Of a stretch of 64,000 bases of DNA, positions 26,390-37,330 are shown in pieces. This DNA is from Acidihalobacter prosperus. Lineage in GTDB: Bacteria > Pseudomonadota > Gammaproteobacteria > DSM-5130 > Acidihalobacteraceae. The position numbers and the translations under genes are program-made. The notes under the pieces are model-generated. The model was not told the origin of the DNA. It worked only from the letters and a program-made list of their open reading frames with translations, and searched no databases. Position 1 is the stretch's first letter. Each line of letters opens with the position of its first letter. Location of the stretch: the NCBI RefSeq assembly GCF_000754095.2, contig NZ_JQSG02000002.1:1-64000 (forward strand). The letters are read 5' to 3'.

Positions 26390-26769
26390 GGCTGCTCCCG
26401 CTAACCCGGCGACCGGGGCCGGATGTTCGTTTAGAGTATGGGTCGGAAAACCGCTTCGCGCCGGCCGACGGGCGCGATCAGACGAACGATCGGTTCGTCG
26501 GATGCGGCGCGCCGCCGCTTGCGCGACCCTCTCGCAGGGCGCTGCCACGGCGCGTGACGAGCGTGTTCGGACCATGATAGCCAAGCCCCGATGCACTGCC
26601 AAGCCTGGCAGCGGGGCCCCGGCACGGGGTTTCGTTCGTCGGCGCGACACGATACATTGCACCTCACTCCCCATGACAATCGGACCGGATGAGCGTATCC
26701 GACGGCGCGAACAGGCCATCCCTGGCCGCGCGCCGACGGCAGGCGCCGAAAGCCCGAGGAACAACACCC
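26390..26769. other. Gene-free divergent region leuA / ABC importer
   Basis: This stretch of 380 bp between two divergent starts must carry the promoters of both leuA and the ABC importer. I find no convincing -35/-10 pair, T-box, leader peptide or strong dyad. Apparent reading frames through it are upstream extensions of the flanking genes. Confidence 0.5.
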
Positions 26770-28347
26770 ATGAGCGATACACCCCGACACCGAAAATCCG
26801 CGACGACCAAGCCGCTCTCGCCCGAGCGCCGCGACTTTCTGCGCGCCAGCGGCGTGCTCGGCCTAGGCCTCGCCAGCAGCGGTCTGGCATTGCATCCGGG
26901 CAGCGCCCGGGCCGCCGAGCCGCCCAAACGCGGCGGCACCCTGCGCGTCGCGGTCCCGGCCGCCAAGTCCATCGACCCGCTGAAGATCGACAGCGCCGGC
27001 GCCATCGCCATCGTACAGCAGGTCGGCGAGTATCTCGTCTGGGCCGAGCCCGACCTCAGCCTGCGTCCGGTGCTCGCCACCGCATGGCACACCCCGGACG
27101 GCGGCAAAACCTGGATTTTCGAGCTGCGCCGGGGCGTCAGGTTTCACGATGGCCGCGAGATGACGGCCGACGACGTGGTCGCCACCTTCGAACGGCTGGT
27201 CGACCCCAAGCAGGCCTCGGTGGCGCGGGCACAGATCCCGTTCCTCAAGCCCGGCGACACCACGAAGGTCGATCGCCATACGGTCAAGTTCGCGCTTGAT
27301 CGGCCAGTGGGCGAGTTCCCCTATTACACCCAGATATATAACGCGATCATCCTGCCGCACGACTACGCCGGCGATTTCGCCAAGCATCCGGTCGGCACCG
27401 GCCCGTTCCGCATGGTCGACTACAAACCGCAGCAACATGCGCGCTTCGAACGCAATCCGGATTACTGGGATGCCGGCAAACCCTATCTGGATGCCGTGCA
27501 CCTTGGCCTGTACGGCTCGCCCCAGCCGATGATTCTCGCGCTGCAGGGCGGCGGCGCCGACATGATGCTCGGCATTTCCTCGATCGACGCCAAGCCGCTG
27601 CTGGACAAGCCGGACATCCGTATCGCCCGCGCCCATTCTTCCGCCACCCGCCTGCTCGCCATGCGCGTCGACCGCAAACCCTTCGACGACCGCCGCGTGC
27701 GCGAGGCGGTGGCACTGTGCCTGAATCGCGAAGCCATGCTCGAGGTGCTGCTCGGCGGCGCGGGCGAACTTGGCAACGATCATCCCGTCGCCCCCATTTT
27801 CGGCGATCACATCCGGCTCAAGCAACGCCGTCGGGATATCGCCCACGCCAAGCAGCTGCTGGCGCAGGCAGGCCATCCCACGGGTTTCGACATCGACCTC
27901 TACACCGGCGACTATCTGGAACTGCCTCAATACGCCATCCTCGCGCAACAGATGCTGGCGCCCGCCGGCATTCGCGTGAAACTGCACGTGGAGCCGCTCA
28001 ACACCTATTACGACCACTGGACCGAGGTCGATTTCGGCCTCACCGACTGGACCGGCCGCACCACACCCTCGCAGATACTGTCCGCCGCCTTCGGCGGCCA
28101 CTCCGAATGGAACGCCGCCCACTGGAAACACCCCGGTTTCGACAAGCTGGTGGCGGAGCTGGAGGCCACGGTCGATCCAAGGCAACGCGACCGTCTCGCC
28201 AATCGGGCCGCCGCGATGCTGCATGACGACGTGCCCGCCGCCATCGCCTACTTCATCGACCTGCTGCGGCCGATGCGGCGCAATGTCAGAGGCGTCGAGG
28301 CCAATATGTCGCAATATCTCGATCTCACCCGCGCCTGGCTGGCCTGA
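26770..28347 (+). CDS. ABC transporter substrate-binding protein, peptide/nickel type (SBP family 5)
   Basis: The protein has 525 aa. The N-terminus carries a Tat signal (RRDFLRAS at about 20, hydrophobic stretch, cleavage near ARAAEPP), so it is probably folded before export. The mature part shows SBP_bac_5 features: [45 protein letters not shown] as separate blocks. A GAGGA precedes the chosen ATG. It heads an operon with two permeases and a fused ATPase. The ligand (peptide, opine, metal chelate) cannot be told from sequence. Confidence 0.88.
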
Positions 28348-28363
28348 GACACCCGACAAGCGC

Positions 28364-29323
28364 ATGGCGGTCTACATCGTTCGCCGCTTGCTGCTGCTAT
28401 GCGTCACGCTGGCCGCGGCCTCGGCGCTGATTTTCGCACTCACCGGCGTGCTGCCCGGCAGCATCGGCCGCATCATGCTCGGCCCCTTCGCCTCCCAGCA
28501 CGCGGTCGATGTACTCAATCGCCAGCTCGGCGCCAGCCTCCCCTTGTGGGAGCGTTACCTGCACTGGCTGGACGGCCTGGCGCATGGCGACTGGGGACGT
28601 TCGCTGGTTTACGACACCCCCGTCCTGCCGCTGGTTCTGGACCGCCTGAAGCACTCACTCGTGCTCGCCGCGGCAGGCCTGGCCCTGCTGCTGCCGAGCG
28701 CCATCGCCAGCGGCGTCTATGCCGCCCTGCGCGAAGGGCACGCCTTCGACCGCATCGTGTCCGTGCTCAGCCTGTCCTTCGGTGCGATTCCCGAATTCGT
28801 CACCGGCGTGGTGCTGATCGTCGTCTTCGGCATCACCCTGCACTGGCTGCCGATCCAGGCCATGCCGGCAGCCGGTGCCGGCACGCTCGACTGGCTGCGC
28901 CATCTGATCATGCCGGCGGTCGCCCTGGCGCTGACACTGTTTTCATATGTCTTCCGCATGGCACGCAGCGGCATGATCGAAGCGCTCGCGGCCGATTACA
29001 CACGAACCGCGATACTCAAGGGTCTACCCCGCCGCGTGGTGCTGTGGCGGCACGTGCTGCGCAACGCCCTGCTGCCGACGATCACCGTCGTCGGCGCGCA
29101 GATCGGCTGGATGGTCGGCGGCCTGGTGGTGGTCGAAACCCTGTTCCGCTATCCCGGCATCGGCAGCCTCACCTACAGCGCCGCCACCAACAAGGACATT
29201 CCGTTGCTGGTCGGCTGCAGCCTGATGATCACCCTGGTCTTCGCCCTGTCGAATTTCCTGGCCGATTTGATCCACGCCCTGCTCGACCCCCGTGCACGCC
29301 ATGCCATCGCCCGCCCCGTCTGA
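28364..29323 (+). CDS. ABC transporter permease, DppB type
   Basis: The protein has 319 aa. It opens with MAVYIVRRLLLLCVTLAAAS, the usual DppB-like first helix, then a periplasmic segment and five more helices. The EAA loop lies at about residue 215 (DYTRTAILKGLPRRVVLWRH). It is 16 nt after the binding-protein gene and overlaps the next permease by 23 bp. Confidence 0.9.
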   Translation: MAVYIVRRLLLLCVTLAAASALIFALTGVLPGSIGRIMLGPFASQHAVDVLNRQLGASLPLWERYLHWLDGLAHGDWGRSLVYDTPVLPLVLDRLKHSLVLAAAGLALLLPSAIASGVYAALREGHAFDRIVSVLSLSFGAIPEFVTGVVLIVVFGITLHWLPIQAMPAAGAGTLDWLRHLIMPAVALALTLFSYVFRMARSGMIEALAADYTRTAILKGLPRRVVLWRHVLRNALLPTITVVGAQIGWMVGGLVVVETLFRYPGIGSLTYSAATNKDIPLLVGCSLMITLVFALSNFLADLIHALLDPRARHAIARPV

Positions 29324-30121
29324 CCACAGGCGCCCGCCGCTGACCCTGCTGCTGGGCCTGAGCCTGATCGCCCTCTGGGTCGTCTGCGCGCTGGCCGCAC
29401 CTTGGATCGCACCCTACTCTCCGACCGCGGTGGATTTCGGCGCCCTGTCGCAGCCGCCTTCCTGGCAGCATTGGTTCGGCACCGACCGCTTTGGCCGCGA
29501 CATCCTCAGCCGGGTGATCTACGGCGCCGCTCAGGTACTCATGGTCGCTCCCGCCGCCACCCTCCTGGGCCTGCTGCTGGGCACGCTCATCGGCCTGATC
29601 ACGGCCTATTACGGACGCTGGATCGACGAAGCCATCATGCGCATGCTCGATGCCGTCATGGCGCTGCCGCTGATCGTGCTGGCCATGCTCGCGCTCACCC
29701 TACTCGGCCCCTCCAAGCTCAACGTCGTCCTGGTCATCGGACTGGTATTCGCGCCGCTGGTGGCACGCACGGTCAGGGCGCGCGCGATGATCGAGGTTCG
29801 TCGGGAATACCTCCTCGCCGCACGCATGCGGGGCGAGGGCACGGCCTATCAGCTGTTACGGGAAATCCTGCCCAATGTCGGCGGGCCGCTCGTCGTGGAG
29901 GGTACGATTCGTCTTGGCTACGCCGTGTTCACCTCGGCCACGCTGGGCTTCCTCGGCCTCGGCGCGCAACCGCCCAGTCCCGACTGGGGCCTGATGGTCA
30001 GCCAGAACCAGACCCAGCTCACCAGCGCCCCGTGGACCGTGCTGTTCCCCGTTCTCGCCATCGTGCTGGTGGTGATCGGTATCGGCCTGACCGCCGACGG
30101 CCTGCGGACCCGGCTCGACGC

Positions 30122-30125
<4 letters not shown>
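29301..30125 (+). CDS. ABC transporter permease, DppC type
   Basis: The protein has 274 aa. The DppC-like N-terminal segment includes APWIAPYSPTAVDFGALSQP then HWFGTDRFGRDILSRVIYG. The EAA loop (EYLLAARMRGEGTAYQLLRE) is near residue 170. The start is uncertain: a GTG at 29292 or the ATG at 29301, both inside the 3' end of the previous permease. Its stop overlaps the next ATG (ATGA). Confidence 0.88.
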
Positions 30126-32131
<2,006 letters not shown>

Positions 32132-32143
32132 TCCGCCTGTACC

Positions 32144-32929
32144 CTATTCGGGCTGCGCGCGCCGCTGCCGCAGCTTGCGCCAGCGGCGCCAGGCGAAATG
32201 CAGCGGGCCGGAAAGCGTGTACAGCACGAACAGCGAATACAGCACGATCGAGGGCCACAGCGCGATCAGCACGAACAAGCTGAGTACCGCGATCACGCTG
32301 ACGAACGGCACCCGCTTGCGCAGATCGATGTCCTTGAAGCTGTAATAGGAAAATCCCGAAACCATCAGGCCGCCGCTGACGAGCGTGATCACCAGCGCGG
32401 GGATCATCAGCGTCCGGCCGTCGACCGAAAACTGCTCCCACATCCACACCGTGCCCATCATCACGGCCGCCGCCGACGGGCTCGGCAATCCCTGGAAGAA
32501 GCGTTTGTCCTGGGTACCGACCTGAGTGTTGAAACGCGCCAGACGTAGCGCCGCGGACGCCGTATAGATGAAGGCGGCCAGCCAGCCGGCCTTGGCCCAG
32601 AACCAGCCCAGGTCGTGCAGATGCACCAGCGCCCACTGATACATCACCAGGGCCGGCGCAAGCCCGAAGGACACCATGTCGGAAAGGCTGTCGTATTCCG
32701 CGCCGAAGGCGCTCTGCGTGTTGGTCATGCGCGCCACGCGGCCATCCAGCCCATCGAGCACCATGGCGATGAATACCGCGATGGCCGCCGCCGTGAAGCG
32801 ACCGTTCATGGCCGCGACAATGGCGTAGAAACCGCCGAACATCGCGCCGGTGGTCAGCAGGTTGGGCAGCAGATAGACCCCCCGTGGATGTCTCACACCC
32901 GCGACCAGCCCACGATTCTCATTGCCCAT
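32144..32929 (-). CDS. pssA: CDP-diacylglycerol-serine O-phosphatidyltransferase
   Basis: Makes phosphatidylserine, the precursor of phosphatidylethanolamine, in the inner membrane. The protein has 261 aa. The CDP-alcohol phosphotransferase signature is complete: DGRVAR, eight residues, G, three, D, three, D (about 60-82). Multiple helices follow and the tail is basic. It is the membrane-bound subclass II type, unlike the E. coli enzyme. It lies in the conserved ilv-psd-pssA order. Confidence 0.92.
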   Translation of the reverse strand: MGNENRGLVAGVRHPRGVYLLPNLLTTGAMFGGFYAIVAAMNGRFTAAAIAVFIAMVLDGLDGRVARMTNTQSAFGAEYDSLSDMVSFGLAPALVMYQWALVHLHDLGWFWAKAGWLAAFIYTASAALRLARFNTQVGTQDKRFFQGLPSPSAAAVMMGTVWMWEQFSVDGRTLMIPALVITLVSGGLMVSGFSYYSFKDIDLRKRVPFVSVIAVLSLFVLIALWPSIVLYSLFVLYTLSGPLHFAWRRWRKLRQRRAQPE

Positions 32930-32969
32930 GCGTTTCCTCATCACTTGTCGCCCCCGGCCGCTCCGCGGC

Positions 32970-33572
32970 TCACGGGCGCAACAGCTTGCCGATGACCTGC
33001 CCCGCTCGCAGCCGTGCGCCGGCTTCGACTTCGACGCGCGAGGCCTCTGGCAGGTACAGCTCGACGATCCTGCCGAAGCCTGCAAAACCGCAACGGCTGC
33101 CATGGCCGACCCGTTCGCCCGCATGCGCGCGGCAGCGCAGATAACCCGGCAGGCGAGAACGGTGTACGGCCACGACGATATCATCCAGTTCGTCGGTCTG
33201 CACCCAAAGCGCGGCCTGATGCTCTTTCGCCGCTGGCGAACCATGCCAGACCTTGAGCAGCTTGCCCTCGATGGGGGCATACAGCCCGTAGGGGCCGGCC
33301 GCATCCTGGACTACGCGGACGCACTGCGACGAACGCTCCCGATAGGGGTCGCGGCAGGATTCGACGGACAGTACGCGCCCGTCCACGGGACTGAGCACGG
33401 CCAGCGGCGAGGCGGGCGCACGGCGGGGCAATTCGCGGAAAACGAACGCGAGCACGAAGGTGCCGATCCAGAGTGGTGCCGCGATCAGCACATTCTCGGT
33501 CGCCGTCAGCGCCAGGGCCAATGCCAACAGGCCGAAAACCGGCACGCGTCCCTCACGCACGATCGGCATCAT
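32970..33572 (-). CDS. Phosphatidylserine decarboxylase-like protein lacking catalytic residues
   Basis: The protein has 200 aa and the same length, order and position (between ilvC and pssA) as short-form Psd. An N-terminal membrane segment (about 12-45) and LSPVDGRVLSVES (about 60-72) are Psd-like. The C-terminal block reads CGFAGFGRIVELYLPE (161-176); active Psd has Phe-Gly-Ser here, and the Ser becomes the pyruvoyl cofactor. Position 168 is Arg. The Asn-Val-His motif expected near residues 88-98 is replaced by VQDAAGPYGLY. It is probably not a working decarboxylase by the known mechanism. The frame is intact, so it is not an obvious pseudogene. Confidence 0.75.
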   Translation of the reverse strand: MMPIVREGRVPVFGLLALALALTATENVLIAAPLWIGTFVLAFVFRELPRRAPASPLAVLSPVDGRVLSVESCRDPYRERSSQCVRVVQDAAGPYGLYAPIEGKLLKVWHGSPAAKEHQAALWVQTDELDDIVVAVHRSRLPGYLRCRAHAGERVGHGSRCGFAGFGRIVELYLPEASRVEVEAGARLRAGQVIGKLLRP

Positions 33573-33648: not shown

Positions 33649-34713
<1,065 letters not shown>

Positions 34714-35205
34714 TCAGGCCCGGAGCACGCGATCGCCGCGGGCGATGCCCATGGCGCCGGAACGCACCACCTCCAGGATATGGCGTTCACCCACCGCCTC
34801 CATGAAGGCGTCGAGCTTTTCGCCGGTGCCGGTCAGTTCGATGGTATAGACCTCGGGCGTGACGTCGATGATGCGGCCGCGGAAGATATCGGATAGCCGC
34901 TTGATTTCCTCGCGTCCGGCATCGGCCGCGTGCACCTTGATCAGCATCATCTCGCGCTCGATGTAGCGATATTCGTTCAGCTCCATCAGCTTGACCACGT
35001 CGATGAGCTTGTTGAGCTGCTTGACGATCTGCTCGACGATCTGCTCATTGCCAGTGGTCACCAGGGTCATGCGCGACAGCGTCGGATCGTTGGTCGGCGC
35101 CACGGTCAGGGATTCGATGTTGTAGCCGCGCGCGGAAAACAGCCCGGCCACGCGCGACAGCGCTCCGGCTTCGTTCTCCATGAGAATGGATATGATGTGG
35201 CGCAT
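34714..35205 (-). CDS. ilvH: Acetolactate synthase small (regulatory) subunit
   Basis: The protein has 163 aa. An N-terminal ACT domain (about 2-78, MRHIISILMENEAGALSRVA) binds valine for feedback control, and a C-terminal IlvH domain follows. It lies 11 nt after ilvB and 48 nt before ilvC in one operon. Confidence 0.95.
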   Translation of the reverse strand: MRHIISILMENEAGALSRVAGLFSARGYNIESLTVAPTNDPTLSRMTLVTTGNEQIVEQIVKQLNKLIDVVKLMELNEYRYIEREMMLIKVHAADAGREEIKRLSDIFRGRIIDVTPEVYTIELTGTGEKLDAFMEAVGERHILEVVRSGAMGIARGDRVLRA

Positions 35206-35216
35206 GCGTACTCCCG

Positions 35217-36914
35217 TCAGACCAGAATCATTTCGTTTTGACCGGCGCCGGCCGGGATCATCGGATAAACGTTCTCGCTATCGTCGGTCACGAAGTCCAT
35301 GAACACCAGCCGGTCCTTGATGGCCAGGGCTTCCTGCAAGGCGCCCTCCACGTCGCCGGGCCGCTCGATGCGCATGCCGACGTGGCCGTAGGATTCGGCC
35401 AGCTTGACGAAATCCGGCAGCGCGTCCATGTAGGACATCGCGTAACGGCCCTGATAGAAGAACTCCTGCCACTGCCGCACCATGCCCATGTAGCGGTTGT
35501 TGAGGGTGATGACCTTGATCGGCAAGTGGTACTGCAAACAGGTCGAAAGCTCCTGGATGCACATCTGGATGCTGGCCTCGCCGGTCACGCAGACCACCGT
35601 CTCGTCGGGATACGCAAGCTGCGCGCCGATGGCGAACGGCAGGCCGACGCCCATCGTGCCAAGACCTCCGGAGTTGATCCAGCGATTGGGTTTGTCGAAC
35701 TTGTAGAACTGCGCGGCCCACATCTGATGCTGACCGACGTCGGAGGTCACGTAGGCGTCGCCGCGGGTCAGCTCGTAGAGCTTTTCGAGCACGAACTGGG
35801 GCTTGATCAGCTCGCTGCCGCGGTCGTACTTGAGACAGTCCATCGCCCGCCATTCCTCGATCTGCTTCCACCAAGCCTTGAGCGGCGCGGCCTTGGGCTT
35901 CTTGCCGCCCGACTTGATCACCTCGATCAGATCCGCGAGCACGTCGCCGACCTGGCCGACGATCGGGATGTCCACGCGCACCGTCTTGGAAATGGAGGCG
36001 GGGTCGACGTCGATGTGCACGATCTTCGCGTGCGGACAGAACTTGTCCACGTTGCCGGTCACGCGGTCGTCGAAGCGCGCGCCGATGGCGATCACCACGT
36101 CGGCCTGATGCATCGCCATGTTCGCCTCGTAGGTCCCGTGCATGCCGAGCATGCCAAGGCACTGACGATCGGACGCGGGATAGCCGCCGAGCCCCATCAG
36201 GGTGTTGGTGATGGGGTAATCGAGCATGCGCGTGAATTCGGTCAGCGCATCGGACGCCTGGCCGAGAATGACGCCGCCGCCGGCATAGATGATCGGCTTT
36301 TCGGCCTGCAGGATCAGCTCGGCGGCACGCTTGATCTGCCCCGGATGCCCCTTGACCGTGGGATTGTAGGAGCGCATGCGGATCGACTTCGGGTACTTGA
36401 AGCCCGCCTTGGCGGCGGTGATGTCCTTGGGAATGTCCACCACCACCGGACCGGGGCGACCGCTCGCGGCGAGATAGAACGCCTTCTTGATCGTCTCGGC
36501 GATGTCCTCGACGCGCTTGATCAGGAAATTGTGCTTGACGATGGGTCGCGTGATGCCCACCGAATCCGTTTCCTGAAACGCGTCGCTACCGATCGCATGG
36601 GTGGGTACCTGGCCGGTGAATACGACCAGGGGCACTGAGTCCATGTAGGCATCGGCGATGCCGGTGACCGCATTGGTCGCGCCCGGCCCGGAGGTCACCA
36701 GCGCCACGCCCACACGGCCCGTCGACTTGGCATAGCCCTCGGCCGCATGCACCGCTCCCTGCTCGTGGCGGGTGAGGATGTGGCTGATATCCTTCTGTTT
36801 GTACAGCGCGTCGTAGATGTGGAGTACCGCACCGCCGGGATAGCCAAAAATCAGATCAACGCCTTCCGCCTTCAGGCAACGCACAAATATTTCGGCACCG
36901 GTCAGTTCCACCAC
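35217..36914 (-). CDS. ilvB: Acetolactate synthase large (catalytic) subunit
   Basis: ThDP- and FAD-dependent enzyme that starts branched-chain amino-acid synthesis. The protein is about 565 aa. The ThDP-site Glu lies in [17 protein letters not shown] (about 45-60). The C-terminal ThDP motif usually begins GDG; here it reads [14 protein letters not shown]. That GDG-to-GEA change is unusual for the family and worth checking. The start is chosen at one of two tandem GTG codons (36914 or 36911) because GGAG lies 5-8 nt upstream; an upstream TTG in frame is less likely. Confidence 0.9.
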
Positions 36915-37330
36915 GTCTTCTCCGCCTCGCAATGCGCGACGGCGCCACCTCGGGCGCCGTCGGCAGATTCTCGATCACATGGCGCGTATCGCTCGCGCCT
37001 CGACTGGAACATTGCATAGTAATATGTCGTCACAAAAAAATCATCGCCCGGCGCCAGAGGATCCTCGCGCATGAGGACGGTTCGCCCCTATAGTCCTGTC
37101 GACGAATTGCCGTGGCTGCGCGCGGGGATGCCTGCGGACCCACCCGCCCCTGGCACGAAGGATTGCGGACGCGCCCTGGTCGAGGCCGAAACGATTGCGT
37201 TTTACCGGCGCCGGCGCTATTCGACCGCTGCGTTGATGTTACTGGGGCGGCGACCCATCGCTGACGCCGAGCGGGCATGACATGACAACGGCAAATCCCG
37301 ATCCACGGGACACCCACCACGGAGCAACGA
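36915..37330. other. Intergenic region ilvB / Asp-Glu racemase
   Basis: These 416 bp hold the upstream region of ilvB (minus) and of the racemase (plus). A run of seven A (around 37034-37040) is the only striking compositional feature. A 69-codon frame (37071-37280, plus) has no family resemblance I can see and no clear ribosome-binding site, so I do not call it a gene. No attenuator-like leader rich in Ile/Val/Leu codons is visible. Confidence 0.5.

Follow-up and report, generated by a model that had tools for sequence, protein, structure and literature searches.

Bacterial homologues of phosphatidylserine (PS) decarboxylase (Psd) are routinely annotated as decarboxylases. The family comprises a short form (PF02666; PRK05305 models of NCBIfam) and a long form of the E. 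coli type. In another enzyme family, degenerate LytM proteins such as EnvC are catalytically dead members that control a partner enzyme. For E. coli Psd, mutants of the Asp-His-Ser set have indicated that Ser254 and His144 matter for cleavage, that Asp90 and Asp142 are partly exchangeable, and that some His mutants undergo slow cleavage (PMC7952604).

The gene considered here, psdL, lies in a stretch of 64,000 nucleotides from Acidihalobacter prosperus, referred to as the window. Its product shares with short-form Psd homology over nearly the full length, the hydrophobic hairpin, the place in the ilv-psd-pssA operon and the SPxDG motif, whereas it differs in lacking the pyruvoyl Ser and the catalytic His, in scoring below the model cut-off, in possessing fixed residues of its own, and in residing together with a long-form Psd. 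The latter belongs to the same superfamily and is encoded in the same genome by a separate gene on another contig, with the motifs SPVDG, YHRIH and MGST intact. The likeness to EnvC-type LytM proteins is one of analogy only, consisting of a dead family member, the logic of partner control, and a weak structural model resembling M23/LytM barrels, whereas the family, compartment and target are different and descent is not shared. We lean toward the reading that PsdL is a pseudoenzyme derived from short-form Psd that works with the PS synthase PssA, in that it would either modulate PssA or bind PS or pass it on.

The psdL locus

The psdL frame comprises 603 bases on the minus strand, the strand being absent from an earlier note on this DNA, and its translation ends in ...GHGSRCGFAGFGRIVELYLPEASRVEVEAGARLRAGQVIGKLLRP. 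A ribosome-binding-like agaagg stands ahead of the start, ATGATG. The gene order on the minus strand is ilvB-ilvH-ilvC-psdL-pssA (Table 1), and pssA, which encodes a CDP-alcohol phosphatidyltransferase, starts 28 bases past the psdL stop. A fusion of psdL with ilvC or pssA, hinted at by long open frames, was rejected, as the surplus residues come from reading high-GC DNA out of frame. An apparent oligopeptide/dipeptide ABC transporter cluster, named from sequence only and composed of a binding protein, two permeases and ATPases, occupies positions 26689-32131 on the plus strand of the window and meets the ilv operon convergently at pssA.

Table 1. Coordinates of psdL, its key codons, its neighbours and other Psd-like genes (window positions unless a contig or locus is given).
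Feature	Position	Strand	Basis
psdL, catalytically dead short-form Psd homologue, 200 aa	32970..33572	-	homology and alignment
Arg168 codon, aligned with the pyruvoyl Ser	33067..33069	-	alignment; computed from frame start 33572
Tyr95 codon, aligned with the catalytic His in Asn-Val-His	33286..33288	-	alignment; computed from 33572
T126-D131 codons (TDELDD), acidic motif fixed in dead copies	33178..33195	-	alignment; computed from 33572
pssA, type II phosphatidylserine synthase	32144..32941	-	PF01066, E = 2.5e-21
ilvC, directly upstream of psdL	33649..34665	-	gene order
ilvH	34714..35205	-	sequence and gene order
ilvB/ilvI, acetolactate synthase large subunit	35217..36932	-	sequence and gene order
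Long-form psd of the same genome	G000:C1:178472-179131		PF02666 search of the genome, E = 2.3e-64
Extra Psd-like genes of G003 and G004	L120:2560-3069; L121:2582-3127	-	DVHVQRSP and LGSTVVLEMP

Homology to Psd and loss of the catalytic residues

PF02666 matches PsdL at 31.2 bits, above its gathering cut-off of 22, which places the protein in the superfamily, and the NCBIfam short-form model NF003680 matches it with E = 1.2e-25, while the best NCBIfam score, 90 bits, lies below the equivalog cut-off of 262. A phmmer search against PDB sequences returned chance WYL matches only. Alignment with short-form Psd proteins and close relatives revealed substitutions in both catalytic columns, with Arg168 standing where the self-cleavage motif FGSRVD has its pyruvoyl Ser and Tyr95 where NVHxNRSP has its His, so that the earlier note had correctly read FGR at position 168 as a missing pyruvoyl Ser and the Asn-Val-His region as gone. 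It had also described the frame and the hydrophobic and C-terminal blocks as intact, in agreement with the retention of the N-terminal hairpin, the C-terminal block and the SPxDG Asp (D64), the last being kept by 89% of the homologues that lack the His/Ser pair, hereafter called dead copies. The HGS at 157-159, named in that note as a possible active Gly-Ser accompanied by a conserved His, was rejected as an alternative cleavage site: it aligns to the GQG columns, 91% of dead copies have Gln at residue 157, Gly158 is also present in intact copies, and the catalytic His is gone anyway.

Because Ser254 and His144 matter for cleavage of E. coli Psd, PsdL should neither mature nor decarboxylate, a prediction derived from knowledge of the E. 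coli mutants. As an enzyme homologue without essential catalytic residues that is under selection, PsdL qualifies by sequence as a pseudoenzyme.

An AlphaFold2 model of PsdL, built from three sequences only and weak (pLDDT 68, pTM 0.66), places helices at residues 12-23 and 28-45 ahead of a beta-rich domain, the acidic motif at the turn that joins strand 118-126 to strand 131-137, and residue 168 at the turn preceding strand 169-175. Foldseek with this weak model gave IIA-Glc and M23/LytM domains as neighbours, with no Psd entry among the matches listed.

Extent of the dead family and complementarity with long-form Psd

The search of the window's genome with PF02666 yielded no match beyond psdL itself and the strongly matching long form on the other contig. 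Judged by its motifs, it is this different, intact enzyme that carries out PS decarboxylation. The earlier note had offered another Psd in the lineage as an alternative to a pseudoenzyme, and the two readings are supported together, the catalytic residues of PsdL being lost and the gene being under purifying selection.

Relatives were sought with a 16-sequence alignment in 276 genomes drawn across the class, which gene content and the named relatives suggest to be Gammaproteobacteria. Short-form homologues were present in 97 of them, with the sequences of nearly all being read, and a homologue without the His/Ser pair was found in 83 genomes and an intact short form (NVH and FGS) in 14. A strong long-form Psd accompanied the dead copy in 78/83 genomes, as opposed to 0/14 genomes with an intact short form (Fisher p = 4e-13, in a test that takes related genomes as independent), and a second PF02666 match was likewise found in 0/14 of the latter. 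The dead copies without a strong long form belong to G085, G115, G179, G200 and G221, all of which are drafts in 150-470 contigs. Every one of the 53 long forms read (53/53) retains the Asp as well as HRxH and GST. Two genomes of the window's family, G003 and G004, carry an extra Psd-like gene away from pssA, in addition to a dead copy and a long form (Table 1).

Among 86 dead copies, 71 lack both catalytic residues, 13 keep the Ser only, 2 keep the His only and none keeps both, the Ser column being Gly, Arg or Ala in most; in the intact short forms compared, both residues are present in 44/44. A local oddity or sequencing error was discarded as an explanation, the loss being common to 86 loci. 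In a draw across the phylum, the 29 loci read besides that of the window were all intact (17 in the class, 12 outside), so that dead copies were seen solely inside the class: the 12 out-of-class loci read, which were the stronger of the matches there, all carry NVH and FGS (0/12 dead). In one Burkholderiales metagenome-assembled genome (L025:3842-4465, plus strand), the ilvC-psd-pssA arrangement includes a short-form Psd with LHANR, whose cleavage site reads Phe-Ala-Ser in place of Phe-Gly-Ser. Searches of the open-access literature for Psd pseudoenzymes, for inactive or paralogous Psd, and for Psd with pssA and ilvC returned nothing relevant, and the PsdL family is apparently an undescribed pseudoenzyme branch, as far as that literature extends, of a known enzyme family.

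Origin of the dead copies

In a protein tree of 100 rows, a single branch with SH-aLRT support of 100 divides all dead from all intact copies, and the minimum number of changes between the two states is 1, versus 14.2 with shuffled labels, on a tree that is unrooted. From these sequences, the catalytic residues were apparently lost once, long ago. Several losses in quick succession may have occurred instead, the tree being unrooted and some dead rows, G093, G195 and G085, having long branches. Two intact short forms, in G103 (L052) and G209 (L058), combine TDEKDD with NVH and FGS and are possible evolutionary intermediates.

Link to PssA

The earlier note had placed the gene in a conserved position between ilvC and pssA, and this extends to the family, with pssA directly downstream in 82 and ilvC directly upstream in 81 of the 86 dead loci. 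The exceptions to pssA adjacency are G150, where the contig ends, the related genomes G074 and G189, in which psdL has ilvC upstream and pssA lies elsewhere, and G157, in which psdL has neither neighbour. On the other side, ilvC is not directly upstream in G175, G093 and G221, where pssA still adjoins, and G173 is a contig end. Linkage alone is weak evidence, because the ilvC side is lost in G175, G093 and G221 and the pssA side in G074 and G189.

The covariation of evolutionary rates is more telling than linkage for the tie to PssA. After removal of IlvC and long-form Psd, the partial correlation of PsdL and PssA log-distances is 0.51 over 46 genomes (0/1000 permutations), and over the same genomes it is 0.25 for PsdL and long-form Psd (0/1000 permutations) and 0.00 for PsdL and IlvC; with the long-form control omitted, the PsdL-PssA correlation is 0.54 over 74 genomes. 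Part of this covariation could stem from psdL and pssA having been transferred horizontally together. The suggestion of the earlier note that PsdL works with PssA thus gains indirect backing from adjacency and from PssA-specific rate covariation, the joint function itself being the inferred part.

These data bear on the strongest of the rival explanations, according to which PsdL is a pseudoenzyme whose role does not concern PssA; it might, for instance, be a partner or chaperone of long-form Psd or a PS-binding membrane protein in its own right. The co-occurrence of dead copies with long-form Psd, the partial correlation with that enzyme, and the psdL of G157 away from pssA are all in its favour; however, co-occurrence is expected anyway because some enzyme must make phosphatidylethanolamine, PsdL covaries twice as strongly with PssA, and psdL adjoins pssA rather than the long psd, which leaves this explanation unlikely.

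Selection, new constraints and repeated loss

Within the window's genus, the dN/dS of dead copies is 0.17-0.20, as befits the description of the gene in the earlier note as selected and not decaying, and it ranges over 0.11-0.30 wherever synonymous change is unsaturated. The pattern of constraint has shifted. E102, D127, E128 and R154 are fixed in 86/86 dead copies, and D130 (83/86), G156 (84/86) and G191 (84/85) are nearly so, in columns that are variable in intact enzymes, whereas columns invariant in intact enzymes have been freed in the dead copies, for example those at PsdL residues 86, 88, 90, 94, 95, 117 and 118, as well as 143, 144, 165, 168 and 169.

Such residues might instead belong to a new enzyme, in which the Psd scaffold carries a new active site, possibly metal-dependent, made up of E102, D127, E128, D130 and R154. 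Invariance of the acidic residues and the Arg in 86/86 copies is equally typical of an active site and of an interface, but the substrate-side residues of Psd have been freed, and the intact short forms of G103 and G209 already have TDEKDD, so that the motif is compatible with an ordinary Psd. A new enzyme is accordingly improbable.

Loss of psdL was surveyed in 40 genomes without it, chosen by the strongest pssA matches, and no remnant or diverged psdL was found beside pssA at these 40 loci. Of the 32 such loci with ilvC in range, 31 have ilvC and pssA 5-311 bases apart, and the remaining one (1/32) holds an unrelated open reading frame between them. On a PssA tree, the dead and deleted states require about 24 changes, with at least 6 for either label on well-supported branches alone, and therefore psdL has been lost many times. 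Repeated loss with retention of pssA means that PssA can function without PsdL, and that psdL is useful where retained and dispensable elsewhere.

The same losses raise the prospect of a relic, that is, a dying gene held temporarily by translation coupling to pssA, in keeping with rapid evolution (median PsdL distance 2.2) and with a dN/dS mostly above that of pssA or ilvC in the same pairs. Nevertheless, this dN/dS is far from neutral and well below 1, the frames are open throughout the class, residues are invariant over 86 copies, and clean deletion is evidently possible, so that retention is not forced; a relic is as poorly favoured as a new enzyme. That PsdL still decarboxylates PS by some other means, the pyruvoyl or a comparable group coming from a different residue, is highly improbable: 13 dead copies retain the Ser and some E. 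coli His mutants still cleave slowly (PMC7952604), but the Ser column is mostly Gly, Arg or Ala, both residues occur together in 0/86 copies, and nearly all carriers have an intact long form.

Proposed role of PsdL and its significance

The reading of PsdL as a pseudoenzyme working with PssA brings together the observed features of the family, namely the missing residues, the single separation in the tree, purifying selection, complementarity with long-form Psd, and linkage and rate covariation with PssA. In this model, the ancestor of PsdL would have been the active Psd of an ilvBHC-psd-pssA operon. In a gammaproteobacterial ancestor that possessed a long-form Psd, the local copy would have lost both catalytic residues, the His and the pyruvoyl Ser, while retaining the membrane hairpin and the barrel and fixing the charged residues E102, D127, E128, D130 and R154. 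PsdL would remain membrane-bound as a partner of PssA. Its former substrate side, together with the newly fixed charged residues, may bind either freshly synthesized PS or PssA itself. PsdL could then either tune PssA or pass PS to the long-form Psd, a regulator and a lipid carrier fitting equally. A broader proposal, that in many gammaproteobacterial families the dead proteins serve type II PssA as a subunit dedicated to regulation or to handing on PS, is put forward tentatively and with some reserve.

A whole branch of Psd, present in about 30% of the sampled genomes of the class, lacks the chemistry of the family and has nevertheless been retained, which raises the question of what a dead Psd does for PssA, the producer of its former substrate. 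Should PsdL control PssA, membrane lipid composition would be regulated at a new point, one previously undescribed in bacteria. With intact, dead and deleted states at one locus, the family may offer a natural case of the passage from an enzyme to a partner protein.
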